This document shows, in pieces, positions 3,804 through 14,383 of a stretch of DNA of 64,000 nt (its first letter is position 1; each line of letters opens with the position of its first letter). The translations under genes and the position numbers were made by a program. This DNA is from Ancylobacter crimeensis (GTDB taxonomy: Bacteria > Pseudomonadota > Alphaproteobacteria > Rhizobiales > Xanthobacteraceae): NCBI RefSeq assembly GCF_023016805.1, contig NZ_JALKCH010000006.1, positions 248,001 through 312,000 of the forward strand, in the 5' to 3' direction. The notes below the pieces were generated by a model that was not told the DNA's origin, did not search any database, and worked only from the letters and a program-made list of their open reading frames with translations.

Positions 3804-5066
3804 TCAGTTTCTCTCGCCGAGCGAGCGGTCCACAGCGGCGATCACGCGGTCGATCTCCTCCGGCGTGTTGTAGTGCACCGGCCCTACGCGGATGCCGCTC
3901 CCCTTTTCGAGAATGCCCAGGCGCCTATTGGGCTCGAGACCGTAATTGTGCCCGCTCCAGACCTGGATGCCCTCGCTGTTCCAGGGCGCCACGATATCGG
4001 CGGAGGAAGCCTCCTCCACATAAAAGCTCACGGTCGAGACGCGCCGGGCGATGGCGGCGGGATCGGTGATGCCGAGGATTCGTACCCGGTTGAAAGGCTT
4101 CAGCCCCTCGATCAGCCGCAAGGTCAGCATGTCGTCGTGCCGCTTCATCACCCTGAAGCCGGCGGCGAGCCTTCCGCGCAGGTCCACCGTGGTGCCGAGC
4201 GCCGGTTCGAAGCGGGACAGGCCGGCGATGTAATCGATCGCGGCGTGGACGCCGGCGAGTTGCTCGCGATTGGTGGTGCCGGTGGTGAAGCGCCACGGCA
4301 GGTCGCCGGACGCAGCACGCACCTTGTAGGCGCGCAGCCGGTCCAGAACCTCCCGCCGGCCCCAGAAGATGCCGTAATGCGGGCCGAAGAACTTGTAGGC
4401 CGAACAGACGAGGAAATCGCAGCCGAGCGCCTGCACGTCGATCAGGCCGTGCGGGGCGTATTGCACGGCATCGACATAGACCAGCGCCCCGGCCTCGTGG
4501 GCGATCTTCGAAATGCCGGCGATGTCGTTGATGGTGCCGGTAATGTTGCTGGCATAGCAGACCGCGACGAGACGGGTCCGCGGGTTCATCAGGGCAGCGA
4601 GGTCGGCGAGGTCGAACTCGTAGGTCTCCGGCGAGAAGTCGAGCCAGCGCACCACCAGCCCTCTGTCTTCCGCCAGCATCAGCCACGGCGCGACATTGGC
4701 GTCGTGGTCCATGCGCGAGAGCACGATCTCGTCGCCCTCCTTCAGCAGCGAGCCGATGCTGCGCGACATGGCGAAGGTGAGCGTGGTCATGTTCTGCCCG
4801 AAGAACACCTCGCCGGTCTCGGCGGCATTCACCAGCGTCGCCGCCGCCCGGTGTGCGCCATCGACCATCTCGCCGGCTTCGATCGAGGTGTCGAAGGCGC
4901 CGCCGAGATTGGCATTGGTGTGCAGCATGGCGGAAGCCATGCGGTCGACCACCGAGAGCGGCACCTGGGTGCCGGCCGGATTGTCGAGGAACGCGACCGG
5001 TTTGCCGTCGCGCTCGCGCGCAAGCCCGGGAAAATGCCGCCGGACGTCGTGCACATCATAGGCCAT
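3804..5066 (-). CDS. Class V aminotransferase, cysteine desulfurase-like PLP enzyme
   Basis: A 420-residue fold-type I PLP enzyme of the NifS/SufS-like group. Visible signatures are FLDNPAGTQVP near the N-terminus, the aspartate region YVDAVQYAPH, and SAYKFFGPHYG, whose Lys should form the Schiff base. The C-terminal third carries VRVGPVHYNTPEEID. It is not one of the housekeeping suf or isc genes: no iron-sulfur assembly genes are near. Proteins of this subfamily are often annotated as cysteine desulfurase-like without proven activity, so a C-S or C-N lyase or aminotransferase role in the island is equally possible. A palindromic operator candidate lies 57 bp upstream of the start codon. Confidence 0.82.
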   Translation of the reverse strand: MAYDVHDVRRHFPGLARERDGKPVAFLDNPAGTQVPLSVVDRMASAMLHTNANLGGAFDTSIEAGEMVDGAHRAAATLVNAAETGEVFFGQNMTTLTFAMSRSIGSLLKEGDEIVLSRMDHDANVAPWLMLAEDRGLVVRWLDFSPETYEFDLADLAALMNPRTRLVAVCYASNITGTINDIAGISKIAHEAGALVYVDAVQYAPHGLIDVQALGCDFLVCSAYKFFGPHYGIFWGRREVLDRLRAYKVRAASGDLPWRFTTGTTNREQLAGVHAAIDYIAGLSRFEPALGTTVDLRGRLAAGFRVMKRHDDMLTLRLIEGLKPFNRVRILGITDPAAIARRVSTVSFYVEEASSADIVAPWNSEGIQVWSGHNYGLEPNRRLGILEKGSGIRVGPVHYNTPEEIDRVIAAVDRSLGERN

Positions 5067-5122: not shown

Positions 5123-5139
5123 AGTCAAGTTACTTGACT
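5123..5139. promoter_or_regulatory. Palindromic operator candidate, copy 1
   Basis: Perfect 15-bp palindrome GTCAAGTTACTTGAC (5124-5138), 17 bp with flanking A/T. It lies upstream of the PLP enzyme gene and just past the stop of the XRE-cupin gene. A further half-site, CTTGAC, lies at 5153-5158, 21 bp (two helical turns) from the matching half of the palindrome. The same 15-mer recurs at 11708-11722. Confidence 0.7.
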
Positions 5140-5166
5140 TAAGGGATCAGAGCTTGACTGTCGCTG

Positions 5167-5748
5167 TCAGAAGGTCGGCGGGGTATTGACCCACAGCACG
5201 CGGGCCTCTGCGGTGCCTTCGTTGCGATAGCCATGGGGCAGCGACGAATCGAAATAGAAGGAGTCACCCTCGGCGAGCCGGCGCTGATGGCCGTCGACGA
5301 TGAGGGTGAAGGCTCCCGTCAGCACATAGCCGAACTCCTGTCCGCCGTGGCTGATGACATCCGGGCTGCCGCCCCCGGCCGGAATGACGTGAATGTTGAT
5401 CTGCAGTAGTTGGTCCGGCCGGTGCGGTACCAGCCGCTCCAGCACCACCTTGTTGCCGGCCCTTATGTGCCCGGTTTCGAGTCGCGGGCGCTCATTCGCC
5501 CGCACCACGGTCACGGCTCCCTCGCCCTCCGGCGGAGCGGCGAAGAGCGTGCTCATATTGGTGTCCAGCGCCTGCACCAGCTTGTGCAGCGTTCCGATGG
5601 AGGCCTGCGAGCGCCCGTTCTCCAGCTTGGACAGGAAGCCTTCGGTGACGCCGACCCGCTGGCCGAGTTCGGCCAGGCTGAGGCCCATCAGCAGCCGGGC
5701 ATGCTTGAGCCGGGCGCCGATCCTGACATTCGCGTCGGGCGTTTCCAT
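5167..5748 (-). CDS. XRE-family regulator with C-terminal cupin domain
   Basis: A 193-residue DNA-binding regulator of the PuuR/XRE-cupin type. Residues about 10-66 form the helix-turn-helix (GARLKHARLLMGLSLAELGQ, then TEGFLSKLENGRSQASIGTL). Residues about 115-188 form a cupin barrel (INIHVIPAGG, HGGQEFGYVLTG, GDSFYFDSSLPHGYRN), the usual small-ligand sensor. It is the last gene of the importer-catabolic operon, 9 bp after the M20 hydrolase gene, so it should be co-expressed with it. The two identical palindromes flanking the island are its most likely binding sites. That assignment is inference from position and repetition. Confidence 0.9.
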   Translation of the reverse strand: METPDANVRIGARLKHARLLMGLSLAELGQRVGVTEGFLSKLENGRSQASIGTLHKLVQALDTNMSTLFAAPPEGEGAVTVVRANERPRLETGHIRAGNKVVLERLVPHRPDQLLQINIHVIPAGGGSPDVISHGGQEFGYVLTGAFTLIVDGHQRRLAEGDSFYFDSSLPHGYRNEGTAEARVLWVNTPPTF

Positions 5749-5757
5749 TGGTACCCC

Positions 5758-7017
5758 TTAATGTGCCGCGACCATTCCCATGGCATGGCGCAGCATGGCG
5801 CGTGCCAGAACCTCGCAACCATCCGCGATGTGCTCCGGCTCGGTCCATTCGTTTTCGTTGTGGCTGATGCCGCCCCGCGAGGGCACGAAGACCATGGCGC
5901 CGGGCACGATGCGGGCGAGGTTGCTCGCATCGTGCATCGCTCCGCTCGGCAGCCGACGCGTGGCGGCGCCGATCTCGCAGGCGGCACCCTCGATGACGTC
6001 CTGCATCGCCGGATCGAACGCCACCGGCGCGACATCCATGGTCCGGCGCACCGTGCCGACGACGCCCTCAGTGCCGCGCAAGGCTGCAACCGCCTCGGTG
6101 ATTTCCTGCTCCACCCGCTCCAGCAGACCGACATCCGAATGGCGCAGGTCGACGCTCATCGTGACCCGCCCCGGCACGGTGTTGACCGAGCCGGGTTCGA
6201 CCGCGACGCGGCCGAAGGTGATGCGGAAGGCGCGATCATGGGCGAGCGCCGCGCCGCGCATTCTCGTGGCGAGGCCGGCGGCGGCCATGAAGGCGTCGCG
6301 CCGGTCGGCGGCGGGCGTCGTGCCGGCGTGCCGATCCTCCCCGGCGAGGTCGATCTCCAGCCAGCGCACCCCCTGCACGCCCTCGACCACGCCGATGGGA
6401 ACGCCCGCGCGTTCCAGCACCGGTCCCTGCTCGATGTGCAGCTCATAATAGCCGGCAATGCGCCCGGAGAACCGCTCGCGTCCGGCATAGCCGATCCGGT
6501 GCAGCTCGGACTGGAACGGCACCTGTCCGACCCCGCTCACCGCCATGCCGTCATAAGCCCCGATCGCGCCTATGAAGCCCGCCGAACCGGTGAGGCCAGG
6601 CGAAAAACGTACGCCTTCCTCATTGGTCCAGTTCACGAGCGTAATGGCCTGTTCCGTCTCGATCCCGGCCGCGTTCAATCCACGCACCGCCTCGAGCCCC
6701 GCCAGCACGCCGAGCACGCCGTCGAACCGGCCGCCATGCGGCTGGGTGTCGAGGTGGCTGCCCACCAGCACATGGCCGGCATCCGGACGCCGGCCCGCAC
6801 GTGTCGCGAAGACGTTGCCGAACGGATCGACCTGCATCGTCAGGCCTTCTTCCCGGCACCACCGCACGAACAGATCGCGGGCGGCGCGATCCTCGTCGGT
6901 GAGTGCCAGCCGGCAGCAGCCTCCGTTCGGCAAGGCACCGATCCGGGCCATGTCCATGAGGCTCGACCACAGCCGCGTCCCGTCGGTCAGGCGGCCGGGC
7001 CGCACATGCGCGTTCAC
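5758..7017 (-). CDS. M20-family N-carbamoyl amino acid hydrolase / allantoate amidohydrolase-like enzyme
   Basis: A 419-residue zinc hydrolase of the hydantoinase/carbamoylase branch of M20. Metal and catalytic motifs are visible: GSHLDTQPHGGRFDG (His about 88, Asp about 99), NWTNEEGVRF, ELHIEQGPVLE, HAGTTP and PSRGGISHNENEW. The family hydrolyses N-carbamoyl amino acids, ureidoglycine or allantoate, releasing ammonia and CO2. I chose the GTG at 7017, because it forms a GTGA overlap with the stop of the aldehyde dehydrogenase gene; a longer GTG start at 7029 is possible. It lies in the island operon between ALDH and regulator. The substrate is not determined. Confidence 0.87.
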   Translation of the reverse strand: MNAHVRPGRLTDGTRLWSSLMDMARIGALPNGGCCRLALTDEDRAARDLFVRWCREEGLTMQVDPFGNVFATRAGRRPDAGHVLVGSHLDTQPHGGRFDGVLGVLAGLEAVRGLNAAGIETEQAITLVNWTNEEGVRFSPGLTGSAGFIGAIGAYDGMAVSGVGQVPFQSELHRIGYAGRERFSGRIAGYYELHIEQGPVLERAGVPIGVVEGVQGVRWLEIDLAGEDRHAGTTPAADRRDAFMAAAGLATRMRGAALAHDRAFRITFGRVAVEPGSVNTVPGRVTMSVDLRHSDVGLLERVEQEITEAVAALRGTEGVVGTVRRTMDVAPVAFDPAMQDVIEGAACEIGAATRRLPSGAMHDASNLARIVPGAMVFVPSRGGISHNENEWTEPEHIADGCEVLARAMLRHAMGMVAAH

Positions 7018-8516
7018 AGCGAGATCCACGTCGTCTTGAGGTCGGTGTATTTGTCGAAGGCGTGCAGCGAGAGATCGCGCCCGCTGCCGGACTGCTTCAC
7101 CCCGCCGAAGGGCGTGCGCACATCCACCGCGTCCACGGTGTTCACGCTCACCGAACCGACGTGAAGAGTGCGTGCGACGCGATGGGCCTGGGCGAGATCA
7201 TTGGTCCAGACCGAGGCGCCAAGGCCGTACACGGAATCATTGGCGAGGCGCACGACCTCGGCCTCGTCCGCAAAGGTGGAGATGGCGAGAACGGGCCCGA
7301 ACACCTCCTCGCGCGCCAGCCGCGAGGCAGGGTCGACGCCGGTGAACACGGTGGGGGCGATGAAACAGCCACCGGTCTCGGCGAGAACGCGCTCACCGCC
7401 GCAGGCCAGCGTCGCACCTTCACGGCCGATGGCGATATAGTCCATCACCCGCGCGGTGTGCTCCTCGCTCACCATCGCACCCATGCCCGAGGCCGCATCC
7501 AGCGGATCGCCCGGCCGGTAGGCATCGACCTTCGCCAGCACGCGGGCGATGAAGTCCTCTGCGATATCGCGATGGACAAAGAGCCGCGACGTTGCCGAGC
7601 AGACCTCGCCCTGGTTGAAGAAGATGCCCTGCACGGCGAAGGTCGCGGCACGGTCGAGGTCCTTCGCCTCGGGAAAGACGAGATTGGCGCTCTTGCCGCC
7701 GCATTCCAGCCAGATGCGCTTCATGTTCGAGGCGCCGGCATAGCTGAGGAACCGCTTGCCGATCTCGGTCGAGCCGGTGAAGGCGACACAATCGATGCCG
7801 GCATGCAGGCCGATCGCCTGCCCCGCCTCGTGTCCGAATCCGGGCAGCACGTTGAACACCCCGTCCGGCACCCCGGCTTCCGCGGCCAGCTCGGCGAGGC
7901 GCAACGCGGTGAGCGGGGACTGCTCGGCCGGCTTCAGAATGACGCTGTTGCCGGCCGCGAGGGCGGGCGCGCATTTCCACGCCGCCATCTTGAGCGGGAA
8001 GTTCCACGGCACCACCGCGCCGATGACCCCCACCGGCTCATGGTCGATGAGGGCGAACGCACCCTCGCCGGCCCGCACCACCTCACCGTTCAGCTTGTCG
8101 CAGGCCTCTCCATACCAGCGGAACACCTCGGCCGAGCCGGGAATGTCCAGCATCGCCGAATCGCGCAGAAGCTTGCCCATGTCGAGCGTCTCGAGCAGAG
8201 CGAGCTCCTCGGCATGGACGAGGATAAGGTCGGCGAGCCGCACCAGCACGCGCCGGCGCTCGGCCGGATCGCACCGCGACCAGACCCCGGACTCGAAGCT
8301 GCGCCGCGCCGCGATTACCGCGAGATCGACATCGGCCGTTGTGCAGGCGGCGATGTCCGCGATCTTCGCGCCCGTCGCCGGGTTCACATTCTCGAAGCTG
8401 CGCCCCTCGACGGCGGGACGGTAGCGCCCATCGATGAAAGCCTCGGTACGGATGGACAGGGCCGCGGCGCGGGCCTGCCAATCGGCGGGGGTTCGGGTGG
8501 CGGTGACGATGTTCAT
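7014..8516 (-). CDS. NAD(P)-dependent aldehyde dehydrogenase, PuuC-like
   Basis: A 500-residue ALDH-superfamily enzyme. Visible motifs are VPWNFPLKMAAWKCAPALAAGN, FTGSTEIGKR in the cofactor fold, the general base LECGGKSANLV, and the catalytic cysteine in FFNQGEVCSATSR. The overall sequence resembles gamma-glutamyl-gamma-aminobutyraldehyde and betaine aldehyde dehydrogenases, which oxidise amino-aldehydes. ATG 8516 is preferred to 8534 because AGGGA lies 7 bp upstream. The gene overlaps the M20 hydrolase gene by 4 bp and follows the permease gene by 44 bp, so it should be part of one transcript. It would oxidise an aldehyde made from the imported compound; which one is unknown. Confidence 0.9.
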   Translation of the reverse strand: MNIVTATRTPADWQARAAALSIRTEAFIDGRYRPAVEGRSFENVNPATGAKIADIAACTTADVDLAVIAARRSFESGVWSRCDPAERRRVLVRLADLILVHAEELALLETLDMGKLLRDSAMLDIPGSAEVFRWYGEACDKLNGEVVRAGEGAFALIDHEPVGVIGAVVPWNFPLKMAAWKCAPALAAGNSVILKPAEQSPLTALRLAELAAEAGVPDGVFNVLPGFGHEAGQAIGLHAGIDCVAFTGSTEIGKRFLSYAGASNMKRIWLECGGKSANLVFPEAKDLDRAATFAVQGIFFNQGEVCSATSRLFVHRDIAEDFIARVLAKVDAYRPGDPLDAASGMGAMVSEEHTARVMDYIAIGREGATLACGGERVLAETGGCFIAPTVFTGVDPASRLAREEVFGPVLAISTFADEAEVVRLANDSVYGLGASVWTNDLAQAHRVARTLHVGSVSVNTVDAVDVRTPFGGVKQSGSGRDLSLHAFDKYTDLKTTWISL

Positions 8517-8560
8517 GGCGTTTCCCTGTCGCAACCGCTCAGGAGCGGCGCGGCGCGCAG

Positions 8561-9256
8561 CTAGATGCCGGCGCGCCGCAGGTGGACCAGCAGCTTCTTT
8601 TCGAGGAGAGCGAAGGTGAGGCGCAGAAAGCCGACGATGGCCAGATACAGCAGGCCGGCGATCGCGAAGCCTTCATAGGTGAAATAGTAGATGGTGTTGA
8701 AGTTGCGCCCCGCCCCCAGCAGGTCGATCACTGTCACGAGGCTGGCGATGGCGGTGGCGTGCAGCAGGAAGATGGTCTCGTTCTCGAGGCTCGGCAGCGA
8801 GCGGCGCAGCGCATTGGGCAACACGACGATGCGCAGCGTCTGGAAGGGCGACATGCCGATCGCGCGCGCCGCCTCGACCTCGCCATGGGGAACCGCTTCG
8901 ATCGCGCCGCGCAGGATCTGGATGAGATAGGCGCAGCTGCCCAGCGTGAAGGCGATGAGCAGGCAGGTCCAGGCCTCGCGCAGCCAGGGCCAGAGCAGGC
9001 TGCCGCGGATGAAGGCGAACTGGGCGAGGCCGTAATAGAGCAGATACACCTGAACAATCAGGGGAGTGCCGCGGAACATATAGCTCACCGCTTCGATCAG
9101 CGGCGTCGCTACACGCACCTTGCGGGTCACGACCAGCGCCAAAGGAAGCGCCAGCGCGAAGGCGAGTACCGCCGAAAGCACCAGCAGCAGCAGGGTGTTG
9201 CCGAGACCGGTGAGGAAGAGCGGGATGTGGTCGGAAAGAACCTGAAAGGCATACAT
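8561..9256 (-). CDS. Polar amino acid ABC transporter permease (HisM/ArtM type)
   Basis: A 231-residue inner-membrane permease with about five hydrophobic helices. The EAA loop that contacts the ATPase is clear: GEVEAARAIGMSPFQTLRIVVLPNALR. The N-terminus, TGLGNTLLLLVLSAVLAF, is typical of the histidine/glutamine/opine permease family. It starts 9 bp after the partner permease gene. With that partner it forms the membrane channel of the importer encoded at 8561-11692. Confidence 0.92.
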   Translation of the reverse strand: MYAFQVLSDHIPLFLTGLGNTLLLLVLSAVLAFALALPLALVVTRKVRVATPLIEAVSYMFRGTPLIVQVYLLYYGLAQFAFIRGSLLWPWLREAWTCLLIAFTLGSCAYLIQILRGAIEAVPHGEVEAARAIGMSPFQTLRIVVLPNALRRSLPSLENETIFLLHATAIASLVTVIDLLGAGRNFNTIYYFTYEGFAIAGLLYLAIVGFLRLTFALLEKKLLVHLRRAGI

Positions 9257-9265
9257 GGCGCGCCC

Positions 9266-9958
9266 TCACACCCCGGCCGTGCGCGTGCCGCGCGCGAGCC
9301 TGCGGCCGAGGGCGCGGAAGGCAAGGTCCGCAAGCCCCGTATAAGCGAGGTACAGCACCATCACGACCAGCATGAAGGTGAAGGGTTCGCGGGTTGAACG
9401 GCCGATCGAAAGCGCGGCATAGACCGCATCCTGGAGCCCGATCACCGAAACCAGCGCGCAGGACTTCACCAGCGTCAGCCAGATGTTCCAGTAGCCCGGA
9501 AGGGCGAGCCGCATCAGTGGCGGCAGGACGACGACACGAGCCAGCGTCAAGGGCGGCATGCCGACGGCGATGCCGGCCTCGATCTCGCCCTGCGGGATGG
9601 AGAGATAGGCGCCGCGGAAGGTCTCTGTGAGATAGGCGCCGAAGATAACCCCGATCGACACGATGCCCGCGGTGAAGGGTTCGATCCGCAGCGGCTCGAG
9701 CCGGAGCGCGTCGGCGGTGGCGTTGATGGCGGTCTGACCGCCGAAATAGAGCAGCAGCATCAGCACCAGGGGCGGCATGCCGCGCACCAGCACCGTATAG
9801 GCGAGCGCCGCCAGCCGCACCGCCCGGTTGCCGGCGAGCCGCGCCCAGGCACCGCCGAGGCCGATCGCGGTCGCCAGCACCATCGCCCCGAGACTGAGCG
9901 CGACGGTCACCAGCATGCCGTGCAGCACGATCGGCAGGAAGTCGGTGAGCACTTTCAT
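9266..9958 (-). CDS. Polar amino acid ABC transporter permease (HisQ/ArtQ type)
   Basis: A 230-residue permease starting MKVLTDFLPIVLHGMLVTVA. The EAA-loop motif GEIEAGIAVGMPPLTLARVVVLPP and the VRGMPPLVLMLLLYFG segment are those of the HisQ/OccQ family. The ATG at 9958 is chosen because the usual hydrophobic N-terminus begins there, although the frame stays open further upstream. It is the second channel subunit of the importer, between the binding-protein gene and the other permease gene. Confidence 0.92.
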   Translation of the reverse strand: MKVLTDFLPIVLHGMLVTVALSLGAMVLATAIGLGGAWARLAGNRAVRLAALAYTVLVRGMPPLVLMLLLYFGGQTAINATADALRLEPLRIEPFTAGIVSIGVIFGAYLTETFRGAYLSIPQGEIEAGIAVGMPPLTLARVVVLPPLMRLALPGYWNIWLTLVKSCALVSVIGLQDAVYAALSIGRSTREPFTFMLVVMVLYLAYTGLADLAFRALGRRLARGTRTAGV

Positions 9959-10043
9959 GGGAGCGGCTTCACGGCGTCCGGAGCTTGCGGGAAGGGCGAG
10001 GCCGGCAGGCCGCTCGCGCGCGGCATGCCGGCCTTCCGCCGGA

Positions 10044-10829
10044 TCACTCGTAGATGTCGAAGGTGAAGTACTTGTCGTTGATCGCCTTGTAGGTGCCGTC
10101 GGCACGCATGTCCTTGAACGCCTTGTCCAGCGCCTCCTTCAGCGCGACGTCGTCCTTGCGCATGGCGACGCCGGCGCCCTCGCCGAGGCAGCCGGCATCG
10201 CGCACCGGCTCGCCGACCAGCGCGAAGCCCTTGCCGTCATCGCTCTTCAGGAAGGAGTTGGTGATCGCCACCATGCCGTTGAAGGCAAGGTCGATCCGCC
10301 CCGAGGTCAGGTCGAGATAAAGGGCATCGGAGTTCGGATAGACCGTGAGCTTGGCCTTCGGATAGGCCTTCTTCACATAACACTCATAGATTCCCGGCAC
10401 CGCGCCGACCGTGGCACCGCCGAGCGCCGGATCCTTGAAGTCGACCTTCACGTCCGACGTGCCGACGAAGGCGGCGGAGGGACGGTAATAGGGATCGGTG
10501 AAGAGAAGCTGCTTCTTGCGTTCCTCGGTGATGCCCATCGAGGAGAAGATGGCGTCGTAGCGGCGGGTCTGCAGGCCGGCGACGATGCCGTCCCAGTCCT
10601 GCTGGACGAACGCGCATGTGCGCTTCATCTTCTCGCAGGCGGCCATTGCGATATCGACGTCGAAGCCGACGATCTTGCCGTCCGAGGTCAGCAGGTTGAA
10701 GGGCGGATAGGCCGCCTCCGTGGCGAAGACGATGGTCTTGTCCTGGGTCTTGTCCTGCGCTGCGACCGGGCCGGCGAGGGCGCCCATCACGCAGGACAGC
10801 GCGAAGCCGAGGGCCAGATAGTTCTTCAT
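10044..10829 (-). CDS. Periplasmic substrate-binding protein of a polar amino acid ABC transporter
   Basis: A 261-residue SBP_bac_3 protein. The start MKNYLALGFALSCVMGALAG is a Sec signal peptide, with cleavage expected after the VAA of PVAAQDK. The mature part shows the family opening IVFATEAAYPPFN, followed by GFDVDIAMA and the DWDGIVAGLQTRRYD(A)I block of lysine/arginine/ornithine and opine binding proteins. The cationic-amino-acid resemblance fits a guanidino or other basic ligand, but the ligand cannot be read from sequence alone. It lies between the ATPase and permease genes of the same operon. Confidence 0.92.
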   Translation of the reverse strand: MKNYLALGFALSCVMGALAGPVAAQDKTQDKTIVFATEAAYPPFNLLTSDGKIVGFDVDIAMAACEKMKRTCAFVQQDWDGIVAGLQTRRYDAIFSSMGITEERKKQLLFTDPYYRPSAAFVGTSDVKVDFKDPALGGATVGAVPGIYECYVKKAYPKAKLTVYPNSDALYLDLTSGRIDLAFNGMVAITNSFLKSDDGKGFALVGEPVRDAGCLGEGAGVAMRKDDVALKEALDKAFKDMRADGTYKAINDKYFTFDIYE

Positions 10830-10861
10830 CGAGAGTCCCCAGTTTTCATTGAGGCCGCGTT

Positions 10862-11692
10862 TCAGACGGCGGCCCGGGTCAGGAAGGCTTTCAGGCGTTC
10901 GGAACGGGGCGCGCGGAAGAGTTCGCCGGGCGGGCCGGCCTCCTCCACCTCGCCCTTGTGGAGAAACAGGACCTTCGAGGAGACATCGCGGGCGAAGGCC
11001 ATTTCGTGGGTCACCACGATCATGGTGCGCCCCTCCTCGGCGAGACCGCGTATGACCTTCAGCACCTCGCCGACGAGTTCCGGGTCGAGCGCGGAGGTCG
11101 GCTCGTCGAACAGCACCGCCGCCGGCTCCATGGCCAGCGCGCGGGCAATGGCGGCGCGCTGCTGCTGGCCACCGGACATGAAGGCGGGATAGGCGTCGCG
11201 CTTTTCGTAGAGCCCGACGCGCTGGAGATAATGCTCCGCGCTCTCCCGGGCCTCGGCCTTCGACCTGCCCTGAACGTGGACCGGTCCGGCCATGACGTTG
11301 TCCAGCACATTCATGTGCGACCAGAGATTGAACCCCTGGAACACCATGCCGAGCATGGCGCGGATGCGGCGCACCTGCTTTCTGTCGCCGGCTACGAGTC
11401 CCTGCGGACCGGGCCGTAGGTCGAGGTCCTCGCCGCCGATGCGCAGGGATCCGCTGGTCGGCATTTCCAGGAGGTTGAGACAGCGCAGGAAGGTGCTCTT
11501 GCCCGAACCGCTGGCGCCGATGATTGAAATCACGTCGTGGTTCGCAGCCTCGAGCGAGATGCCGCGCAGCACGGAAAGCGAGCCGAAATCCTTGCAGATG
11601 CGCTGCGCCGCGATGATCGGCTGCGCGCCGGCTGCCTCGCTGTCCCTGTCCACGCCGTGCTGCCCCCCGTCCATTGGGCGGGTACATGGCAT
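10862..11692 (-). CDS. Polar amino acid ABC transporter ATP-binding protein (HisP/GlnQ type)
   Basis: A 276-residue ATPase. Walker A is GASGSGKST, the Q-loop region GMVFQGFNLWSHMNVLDN, the signature MSGGQQQRAAIARAL, Walker B AVLFDEPTSALD, and the H-loop VVTHEM. It energises the importer. It is the first gene of the island operon; the ATG at 11692 lies only 7 bp from the edge of the long palindrome at 11700-11730. A second in-frame ATG at 11674 would leave a 25-bp leader and is equally plausible, since neither has a strong ribosome-binding site. Confidence 0.92.
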   Translation of the reverse strand: MPCTRPMDGGQHGVDRDSEAAGAQPIIAAQRICKDFGSLSVLRGISLEAANHDVISIIGASGSGKSTFLRCLNLLEMPTSGSLRIGGEDLDLRPGPQGLVAGDRKQVRRIRAMLGMVFQGFNLWSHMNVLDNVMAGPVHVQGRSKAEARESAEHYLQRVGLYEKRDAYPAFMSGGQQQRAAIARALAMEPAAVLFDEPTSALDPELVGEVLKVIRGLAEEGRTMIVVTHEMAFARDVSSKVLFLHKGEVEEAGPPGELFRAPRSERLKAFLTRAAV

Positions 11693-11699
11693 CTGTCTG

Positions 11700-11730
11700 T
11701 CGCGTAAGTCAAGTTACTTGACATACGCGA
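11700..11730. promoter_or_regulatory. Palindromic operator candidate, copy 2
   Basis: The core GTCAAGTTACTTGAC at 11708-11722 is identical to the copy at 5124-5138. Here the symmetry extends outward through TCGCGTA..TACGCGA, giving 31 bp with a single mismatched pair. It sits between the divergent importer operon (ATG 11692) and the ureohydrolase gene (ATG 11864) and could control both. Confidence 0.72.
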
Positions 11731-11863: not shown

Positions 11864-12817
11864 ATGACCGACACGCCCGACCTCGCCGCCCTCTACGGTT
11901 CCGCCGCCTCGACCTTCATGGGTCTGGAAGCCTGCAGCGACCTGAACCAACTCAAGGCGCCGGTCGCCTTCATCGGCGCGCCCTGCGCGAGCCCCTACAG
12001 CGCGGTGGGCGCCTATTGCCGCCACGCGCCCGACGCGCTACGGGCGGCAACCGTCTCGCTTGCCGCCAATCTCTGGCACTACGATTTCGACCTGGGCGGC
12101 CCCATGTTCCCGAGCCGCGAGCTGGCGGCGGTCGATTGCGGCAACCTGCCCTATGACGAGGCGGATGCCCCCGGCAACCGCGAGATCATCCGCAACGCCA
12201 TTCGTACCATTCGCGCCCGCGGTGCGGTGCCGATCACGGTCGGCGGCGACGATTCCATCCCGATCCCGGTCCTGGAGGCTCTTGGCGAGACAGGCGAGCG
12301 CTACACCATTCTCCAGCTCGACGCCCATATCGACTGGCGCGACGAATATATGGGCGAGCGACAGGGCCTCTCCTCCACCATGCGCCGCGCCTCCGAGATG
12401 AAGCACATCGAGCGCATCGTCCAGGTCGGCGCGCGCAGCATCGGCTCGGCCCGCCCGCAGGACTATCAGGACGCGCTGGACTGGGGCGTGCGCTTCGTCA
12501 CCGGATATGAACTGCACCGGCAGGGCGTGGAGGCCGCACTCGCCCTGATCCCGGAAGGCTCCAACATCATCGTCACCACCGACGCCGATGTGATGGACCC
12601 CGCGCTCGTGCCCGGAGTCATCGGCCGCTGCCCCGGCGGGCTGAACTATTACCAGATGGTCGATCTCATCAAGGGTGCCGCCGCGCGCGGGCGGATCGCG
12701 GCGATGAACTTCGTCGAGTTCATGCCGGAACGCGATGTCAGCGGCCTCGGCGCGCTCAATATCGCCCGTCTCATCATGACCGCGATGGGCGTGCTGGCCC
12801 GGCAGGCTGCCCGCTGA
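11864..12817 (+). CDS. Ureohydrolase (agmatinase/arginase family) with an altered metal ligand
   Basis: A 317-residue arginase-superfamily protein, expected to hydrolyse a guanidino compound to urea and an amine. The metal motifs LDAHIDWRD (Asp153, His155, Asp157) and TTDADVMDP (Asp240, Asp242) are intact. The first motif reads GGDDS (Asp130), where most agmatinases and arginases have GGDHS with a Mn-binding His. ATG 11864 is preferred: it has GAGG upstream and gives the expected N-terminus. It is divergent from the importer operon across the shared palindrome. Substrate could be agmatine, guanidinobutyrate, creatine-like compounds or guanidine; the sequence does not decide. Confidence 0.85.
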   Translation: MTDTPDLAALYGSAASTFMGLEACSDLNQLKAPVAFIGAPCASPYSAVGAYCRHAPDALRAATVSLAANLWHYDFDLGGPMFPSRELAAVDCGNLPYDEADAPGNREIIRNAIRTIRARGAVPITVGGDDSIPIPVLEALGETGERYTILQLDAHIDWRDEYMGERQGLSSTMRRASEMKHIERIVQVGARSIGSARPQDYQDALDWGVRFVTGYELHRQGVEAALALIPEGSNIIVTTDADVMDPALVPGVIGRCPGGLNYYQMVDLIKGAAARGRIAAMNFVEFMPERDVSGLGALNIARLIMTAMGVLARQAAR

Positions 12818-12823
12818 CGATGC

Positions 12824-12852
12824 CGGCGCGCCCGGCCGGGCCGGGCGCGCCG
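12824..12852. terminator. GC-only hairpin between convergent genes
   Basis: A 13-bp perfect stem (arms CGGCGCGCCCGGC and its complement, loop CGG) lies 6 bp after the ureohydrolase stop and 4 bp before the end of ctlX. There is no T-tract on either side, so it may be a bidirectional Rho-assisted or 3'-end stabilising hairpin. Confidence 0.45.
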
Positions 12853-12856
12853 CTCC

Positions 12857-13822: not shown

Positions 13823-13903
13823 GGTTAAAACCCCTCGCTGGCGATGAACGATGCGAGGGGGATGCTAGGACTACGCAGTTTGCGCCTAGAATCTCCATCC
13901 TGT

Positions 13904-13913
13904 ATAAATTTAT
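13904..13913. promoter_or_regulatory. AT-rich palindrome in the ctlX-lrp divergent region
   Basis: ATAAATTTAT is a perfect palindrome inside an AT-rich stretch of otherwise GC-rich DNA. It lies 81 bp before the ctlX start and 26 bp before the lrp start. Lrp-type regulators bind degenerate AT-rich palindromes, so this is a candidate site for the adjacent regulator; it could also be part of a -10 element. Confidence 0.4.
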
Positions 13914-13939
13914 CAATCCTTCTGAACATTTTGCTCAGT

Positions 13940-14383
13940 ATGAATGATCGATCCGATATGCACGTCTTCGACGATCTCGATCATCGCCTGATCGCCATCC
14001 TGCGCGAGGACGGGCGGGCTCCGGTGTCGAAACTGGCGACCATCCTCGGTATCACGCGGGCCACGGTGCAGAAGCGGATCGACCGGCTGCTGGAATCAGG
14101 CGCCGTGCTCGGCTTCACCCTGCGGGTGCGACAGGACTATGACGCCTCCGCGATCCGGGCGGTGATGCTGATCGAGGTGACCGGCCGCTCCACGACCGCG
14201 GTGATCCGGACGTTGCGCGGCCTGCCGGAGCTGCATGCGCTGCACACCACCAACGGTGGCTGGGACCTGATCGCCGAGATCCGTGCCGCGAGCCTCAGCG
14301 ATTTCGACCGCGTGCTTCGCCAGGTGCGCACCATAGACGGGGTGCTGAACAGCGAAACCAGTATCCTGCTGAGTTCGGTCTGA
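13940..14383 (+). CDS. Lrp/AsnC family transcriptional regulator
   Basis: A 147-residue regulator. Residues 12-60 are the AsnC-type helix-turn-helix (DDLDHRLIAILREDGRAPVSKL, then RATVQKRIDRLLESG). The rest is the RAM ligand-binding/oligomerisation domain. The start is ATG 13940; ATG 13958 would give the shorter MHVFDDLD form. It is divergently transcribed from ctlX with 117 bp between starts, so it most likely senses an amino acid (such as ornithine, arginine or citrulline) and controls ctlX. That link is inference from arrangement. Confidence 0.9.
   Translation: MNDRSDMHVFDDLDHRLIAILREDGRAPVSKLATILGITRATVQKRIDRLLESGAVLGFTLRVRQDYDASAIRAVMLIEVTGRSTTAVIRTLRGLPELHALHTTNGGWDLIAEIRAASLSDFDRVLRQVRTIDGVLNSETSILLSSV

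Follow-up and report, generated by a model that had tools for sequence, protein, structure and literature searches.

Two copies of a 15-bp palindrome frame a catabolic gene cluster in Ancylobacter crimeensis, raising the question of which protein recognizes them and which genes it would control through them. The initial annotation of the 64,000-nucleotide stretch of DNA analyzed here (hereafter, the window) had put forward the XRE-cupin protein encoded within the cluster. Our comparison of the sites with those of related loci indicates that both palindromes are very probably operators of this protein, encoded at 5167-5748, and that they would mediate a ligand-released repression of the units of the cluster.

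Gene context and uniqueness of the palindromes

The minus-strand genes of the cluster follow each other, in order of transcription, as a HisP-like ABC importer ATPase (10862-11692, with its start at about 11692), a probable importer substrate-binding protein (10044-10829, named by reading the sequence and with an inferred start), a HisQ-like permease (9266-9958, its start inferred from the HisQ match inside the ORF at 9266-10105), a HisM/ArtM-like permease (8561-9256), a PuuC-like aldehyde dehydrogenase (ALDH) scoring under the PuuC cut-off (7014-8534), an M20 hydantoinase/carbamoylase family amidase of the allantoate amidohydrolase subfamily (5758-7029; 472.7 bits, cut-off 452), the XRE-cupin regulator (5167-5748) and a PLP enzyme of the class V aminotransferase/cysteine desulfurase-like type (3804-5066; TIGR01976, 468.6 bits, cut-off 352.35). 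Family scans identified the HisP-like and HisM/ArtM-like components of the importer, and domain scans of the regulator returned HTH_3 (43.9 bits, cut-off 23) and Cupin_2 (72.9 bits, cut-off 27.2), the N-terminal XRE-type HTH and C-terminal cupin domain by which local XRE-cupin regulators are recognized. As initially annotated, the XRE-cupin gene closes the importer operon, lying ahead of the PLP gene (start at 5066) on the same strand and separated from it by a gap of 100 bp. A ureohydrolase of the arginase family (11864-12817, plus strand), for which the ATG at 11864 was preferred to an upstream TTG, diverges from the importer.

Both palindromes are exact copies of GTCAAGTTACTTGAC and, by inspection, follow the pattern CAAG-N3-CTTG, neither being assigned to a strand. 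The first (putative operator 1, 5124-5138) occupies the gap between the XRE-cupin and PLP genes, 28 bp from the end of the former, and the second (putative operator 2, 11708-11722) sits between the divergent importer and ureohydrolase genes, at the head of the operon that contains the XRE-cupin gene. This layout, with a palindromic site near the regulator gene and metabolic genes as neighbors, is that of local XRE-cupin regulators. The near-perfect dyad reported around the second copy spans 31 bp (11700-11730, also without strand) and holds 14 of 15 complementary pairs, a quality reached by none of 50 single-base shuffles of the window and by only one other 31-bp dyad within it, which is GC-rich and centered at 12838. 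That dyad (12823-12853) lies where the ureohydrolase and CtlX genes converge and is perhaps a terminator.

With both strands counted and up to three mismatches allowed, the window contains four matches to GTCAAGTTACTTGAC, against a mean of 0.15 and a largest value of 2 for the same search in 100 dinucleotide-preserving shuffles, and a search of the full 64-kb window for operator-like dyads at threshold returns only the two known sites. Counting across all 26 contigs of the genome (4,296,055 bases), as the initial annotation had advised, yields GTCAAGTNACTTGAC at exactly two places, operators 1 and 2. Allowing up to two mismatches produces five places versus nine for the reversed control, so the three looser places are at chance level. 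The regulon may be small, with two exact sites in 4.3 Mb, variant sites being indistinguishable from chance by sequence alone.

These counts bear on the idea that the palindromes are chance repeats or a structural element, such as a terminator or the end of a mobile element, devoid of regulatory role. The copies do frame the cluster, as the ends of a mobile unit might, and its regulator reaches at least 88% identity in 3 of 30 genus genomes. Nonetheless, the chance expectation for the repeat is far below two, no terminator-like structure was found at operator 1 or operator 2, and similar sites recur, singly or as pairs 20 bp apart, beside regulator homologs with other gene neighbors, which makes this explanation very improbable. 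No sigma-70-like promoter was recognized at either site, a result that weighs against the operator reading.

Variant sites in related loci

The closest named relatives of the regulator come from Ancylobacter. It is an accessory element of the genus, since 3 of the 30 genomes, among them the one under study, encode it with at least 88% identity and a fourth encodes a 46% identical homolog. In both A. moscoviensis and A. oerskovii, a dyad of the form GTCAAG-N3-CTTTCC (score 29) precedes the PLP gene, and a looser dyad with two mismatches to GTCAAGTNACTTGAC (scores 23 and 24) precedes the importer. In one of these species the looser site scored no better than positions elsewhere in the same 20 kb, and both were accepted by position and alignment instead of score. 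The alignment of the second site across the three Ancylobacter species leaves GTCAA and TTGAC invariant.

The unit divergent from the importer is not constant. An AllD-like dehydrogenase gene, which is related to ureidoglycolate dehydrogenase but scores under the family cut-offs, separates site 2 from the ureohydrolase gene in the two Ancylobacter relatives (L120:15222-16316 and L121:2374-3453), and no match to it was found in the window. The initial suggestion that two sites would cover at least three transcription units agrees with the gene context of the window, whereas the identity of the divergent target does not hold constant across species, the AllD-like gene intervening in two of them. 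Together with a purine/allantoin-type permease gene present in one relative, the AllD-like genes, the amidase and the ureohydrolase give a loose indication that the substrate is a ureido or amidino compound. Mimosine was considered as a substrate and dropped, no ring-cleaving enzyme being present among the scanned genes of the cluster.

Outside the genus, loci from Chelativorans, Mesorhizobium, Aestuariivirga and Paraburkholderia, with regulators 55 to 65% identical to that of the window, display dyads of the same plan, the most symmetric of them being TTAAGGAAAGATACTTTCCTTAA, ahead of a Paraburkholderia PLP gene. Three plasmid loci, two from Rhizobium etli Mim1 and one from Rhizobium CB3060, encode regulators with 68 to 69% identity. 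In these loci, two dyads occupy the stretch that separates a transporter operon from the divergent ALDH-amidase-XRE-PLP operon, and a third, weaker dyad lies at a distance of exactly 20 bp from one of the two.

To quantify this recurrence we scored operator-like dyads in the first 20 kb of the window and in 13 relative loci, a set of 14 that includes near-copies (two Paraburkholderia, three Rhizobium), using a threshold of 26 that was chosen with the scores already known. The search returned 19 matches distributed over 11 of the 14 loci, and none of 300 column-permuted motifs applied to the same loci reached that figure (mean 0.29, maximum 5). The four plasmid loci that were added once the scoring scheme was in place contributed 6 dyads, versus a permuted mean of 0.14 and a maximum of 3, the consensus having been drawn partly from the other ten loci. 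No dyad attained the threshold in the three remaining loci (L111, L112 and L147), one of which, L112, carries a dyad scoring 25 directly before its amidase gene. The expectation that relatives keeping the cluster would keep the 15-mer is borne out for the plan of the site, found in 11 of 14 loci including the window, but not for its exact sequence, which is replaced by variants in the two Ancylobacter relatives.

In a survey of the order, the exact 15-mer occurs in 5 of 367 genomes, the one under study included, and the two Ancylobacter relatives have variants instead. In the other four genomes, no match (E <=1) to the XRE-cupin protein of the window was obtained in the surrounding 3 kb, about 1.5 kb on each side, and the exact 15-mer was accordingly rejected as a diagnostic of this regulator. 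The perfect 15-mer is this strain's own version of a looser operator. Palindromes of the form GTCAAG-N3-CTTGAC, paired 37-42 bp apart and without a recognized XRE-cupin neighbor, were observed at L133/L135 (genome G080), L132 (G202) and L134 (G015).

These occurrences are relevant to the proposal that another regulator, either of MarR type or the Lrp-like protein encoded at 13844-14383 (type named by reading), owns the palindromes and that the XRE-cupin gene is a bystander. In G080, two exact 15-mers lie 38 bp apart beside a MarR-like gene, its family named by reading, and in light of this neighbor another type of regulator may use the same palindrome there; three more genomes harbor exact 15-mers without a recognized XRE-cupin gene, and three of the four plasmid loci, like the window by reading, have Lrp-type genes close to the cluster. 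Against this, the G080 MarR protein has no relative (E <=1e-5) in the genome under study or in the two Ancylobacter relatives, and only weak matches, 31 to 34% identical, in Chelativorans and Mesorhizobium. For the genome under study, the absence of a relative at that cut-off led us to reject the MarR version. The presence of the motif tracks XRE-cupin homologs instead, including loci with no carbamoylase gene in the 3.5 kb fetched, and ownership of the sites by a different regulator is, on balance, improbable.

The core motif across the wider regulator family

The association of the motif with XRE-cupin genes extends beyond the close relatives. We assembled 45 XRE-cupin homolog loci (157,696 bases), comprising the best 30 of 68 homolog places plus 3 further ones and the best 10 of 19 plus 2 further ones, a collection that takes in the window's own locus and near-copies. 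The core 13-mer TCAAGNNNCTTGA occurs 31 times in 21 of these loci and not once as its reversed control, and it is absent from the other 24, entire clades included. The pattern CAAG-N3-CTTG is found 33 times, versus 6 for its reversed control and 2 for another arrangement, and changing the spacer between CAAG and CTTG to 2, 4 or 5 positions leaves 0, 2 and 2 instances, respectively. Loci from alpha- and betaproteobacteria have the core in common, and it also stands beside XRE-cupin homologs that have no carbamoylase gene in the 3.5 kb fetched. Mapped onto a tree of 51 regulators, on which near-copies favor clustering of the motif, the motif label needs 6 changes, compared to 16.8 in shuffles, with 0 of 500 shuffles as low. 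The pairing of the XRE-cupin protein with the sites, presented initially as conjecture, is on comparative grounds well supported by the core at 21 of 45 homolog loci and by the 19 dyads in 11 of 14 loci.

Placed relative to the XRE gene only, 32 core sites fall within 1.5 kb of it, with 20 downstream, 12 upstream and none inside the gene. With 20 of 32 near sites downstream, the layout seen in the window, where a site lies just past the regulator gene, is a common one.

At the scale of whole genomes the core carries little signal. In the genome under study it is near background (8 versus 5), and 29 of the 30 genus genomes contain at least one copy. Searched with one mismatch in eight genomes, a degenerate pattern falls below its reversed control in six and exceeds it in two (32 versus 25 and 11 versus 7). 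Like the two-mismatch search for the 15-mer, this search says nothing regarding further targets.

The core sites also obey a tandem register. Examining both sides of the 31 core sites, and thus counting true pairs from both members, we found 16 positions at an offset of 20 that agree with the core in at least 7 of 10 letters, and 0 to 2 such matches at each of the other offsets from 13 to 45. This register suggests two dimers side by side. In the window, the half-site CTTGAC (5153-5158), part of a degenerate second dyad (5144-5158, plus strand), keeps a spacing of exactly 20 bp to the right arm of operator 1. At this offset, 5 of 10 letters match the core, all in the right arm, and the CTTG of the half-site is invariant across the three Ancylobacter copies; operator 2 has no partner in the 20-bp register. 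The initial suggestion of co-operative binding, drawn from a lone half-site, gains a basis in this spacing, and such binding may occur at operator 1.

A proposed local switch and its known counterparts

Considered together, the sites and their context suggest a model in which a dimer of the XRE-cupin protein would bind the consensus (T/G)TCAAGTNACTTGA(A/C), with a second dimer possibly binding weakly at the degenerate dyad of operator 1, about two helical turns away. Free of ligand, the protein would probably repress the importer-ALDH-carbamoylase-XRE operon, and hence also itself, as well as the PLP gene and the unit transcribed divergently from the importer. Binding of a small pathway metabolite by the cupin domain would then release the repressor.

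This arrangement has counterparts in Pseudomonas. PMC7901475 describes P. aeruginosa XRE-cupin proteins that inhibit neighboring metabolic genes, palindromic motifs that support binding as dimers, and a model of release upon sensing of a pathway metabolite. PsdR, PauR, ErfA and others, as portrayed there, share with the system of the window the domain architecture and a palindromic site, and sites flank the PsdR gene, as seen here. These repressors have few targets, mostly including one that adjoins the regulator gene, and the regulator of the window may be alike in this. The P. aeruginosa repressors differ from the present system in pathway genes, lineage and operator; the PsdR operator given in PMC10965056, TTAAGN5CTTAA, departs from CAAG-N3-CTTG, and the sites of the window are not of PsdR type. 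In Pseudomonas putida, DbuR, again an HTH and cupin protein, represses an adjoining amino-acid catabolic operon through a 20-bp palindrome whose sequence, like the pathway, is unlike that of the window, and its effector is not identified in PMC12724383. By analogy with these proteins, the operator and regulator described here most likely exemplify a local metabolic switch of a known kind.

Where the sites lie does not by itself distinguish repression from activation, and the XRE-cupin protein might instead bind both sites to activate transcription, or regulate in both directions depending on ligand. NceR, an XRE family member of Neisseria gonorrhoeae, is an activator of ompA according to the title of a reference in PMC12724383. 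The characterized P. aeruginosa XRE-cupin proteins, by contrast, are exclusive inhibitors according to PMC7901475, and we regard activation or dual regulation as unlikely next to ligand-released repression.

Neither this regulon nor its operator was found described in the papers searched, by titles and abstract starts, and neither CAAG nor CTTG appears in the main text of the large XRE motif survey of PMC12565409. The designation of the regulon as undescribed holds to that extent, the kind of switch itself having been described in PMC7901475. The best NCBIfam match of the regulator is PuuR of E. coli (NF007408), with which the system also shares a PuuC-like ALDH in the cluster; at 77.9 bits versus a cut-off of 211 the score is far too low, and identity as a PuuR equivalog was ruled out. 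The genome under study encodes four further, weaker matches to the regulator (E <=1e-4, the best of them 30% identical), which could conceivably bind the sites as well.

For XRE-cupin proteins outside Pseudomonas, the locus offers an operator, a regulator and a set of targets that can be tested. If the assignment of the sites to the XRE-cupin protein is true, it would help to predict the targets of many unstudied XRE-cupin regulators and to find the ligand of the cluster. A more speculative reading, to which we give only a small chance in its entirety, is that this XRE-cupin clade governs a transferable module, made up of carbamoylase, ALDH, PLP enzyme and importer, for an unrecognized ureido or amidino amino acid, and that within the clade the operator half-site drifts between GTCAAG and GGAAAG. 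The compound could be a plant non-protein amino acid, since related modules are found on conjugative plasmids of Leucaena and Mimosa rhizobia. Half-site drift, if true, would make the clade a natural series in which changes of DNA preference among XRE-cupin proteins could be followed.

The ALDH-amidase-XRE-PLP module is present in two copies in Rhizobium etli Mim1, on two plasmids typed as conjugative, and in a third copy in Rhizobium CB3060, from Leucaena (the L145, L146 and L144 group). Among 69 plasmid records, 19 from Klebsiella contain an XRE-cupin homolog, the two listed being 44.6% identical to the protein of the window.
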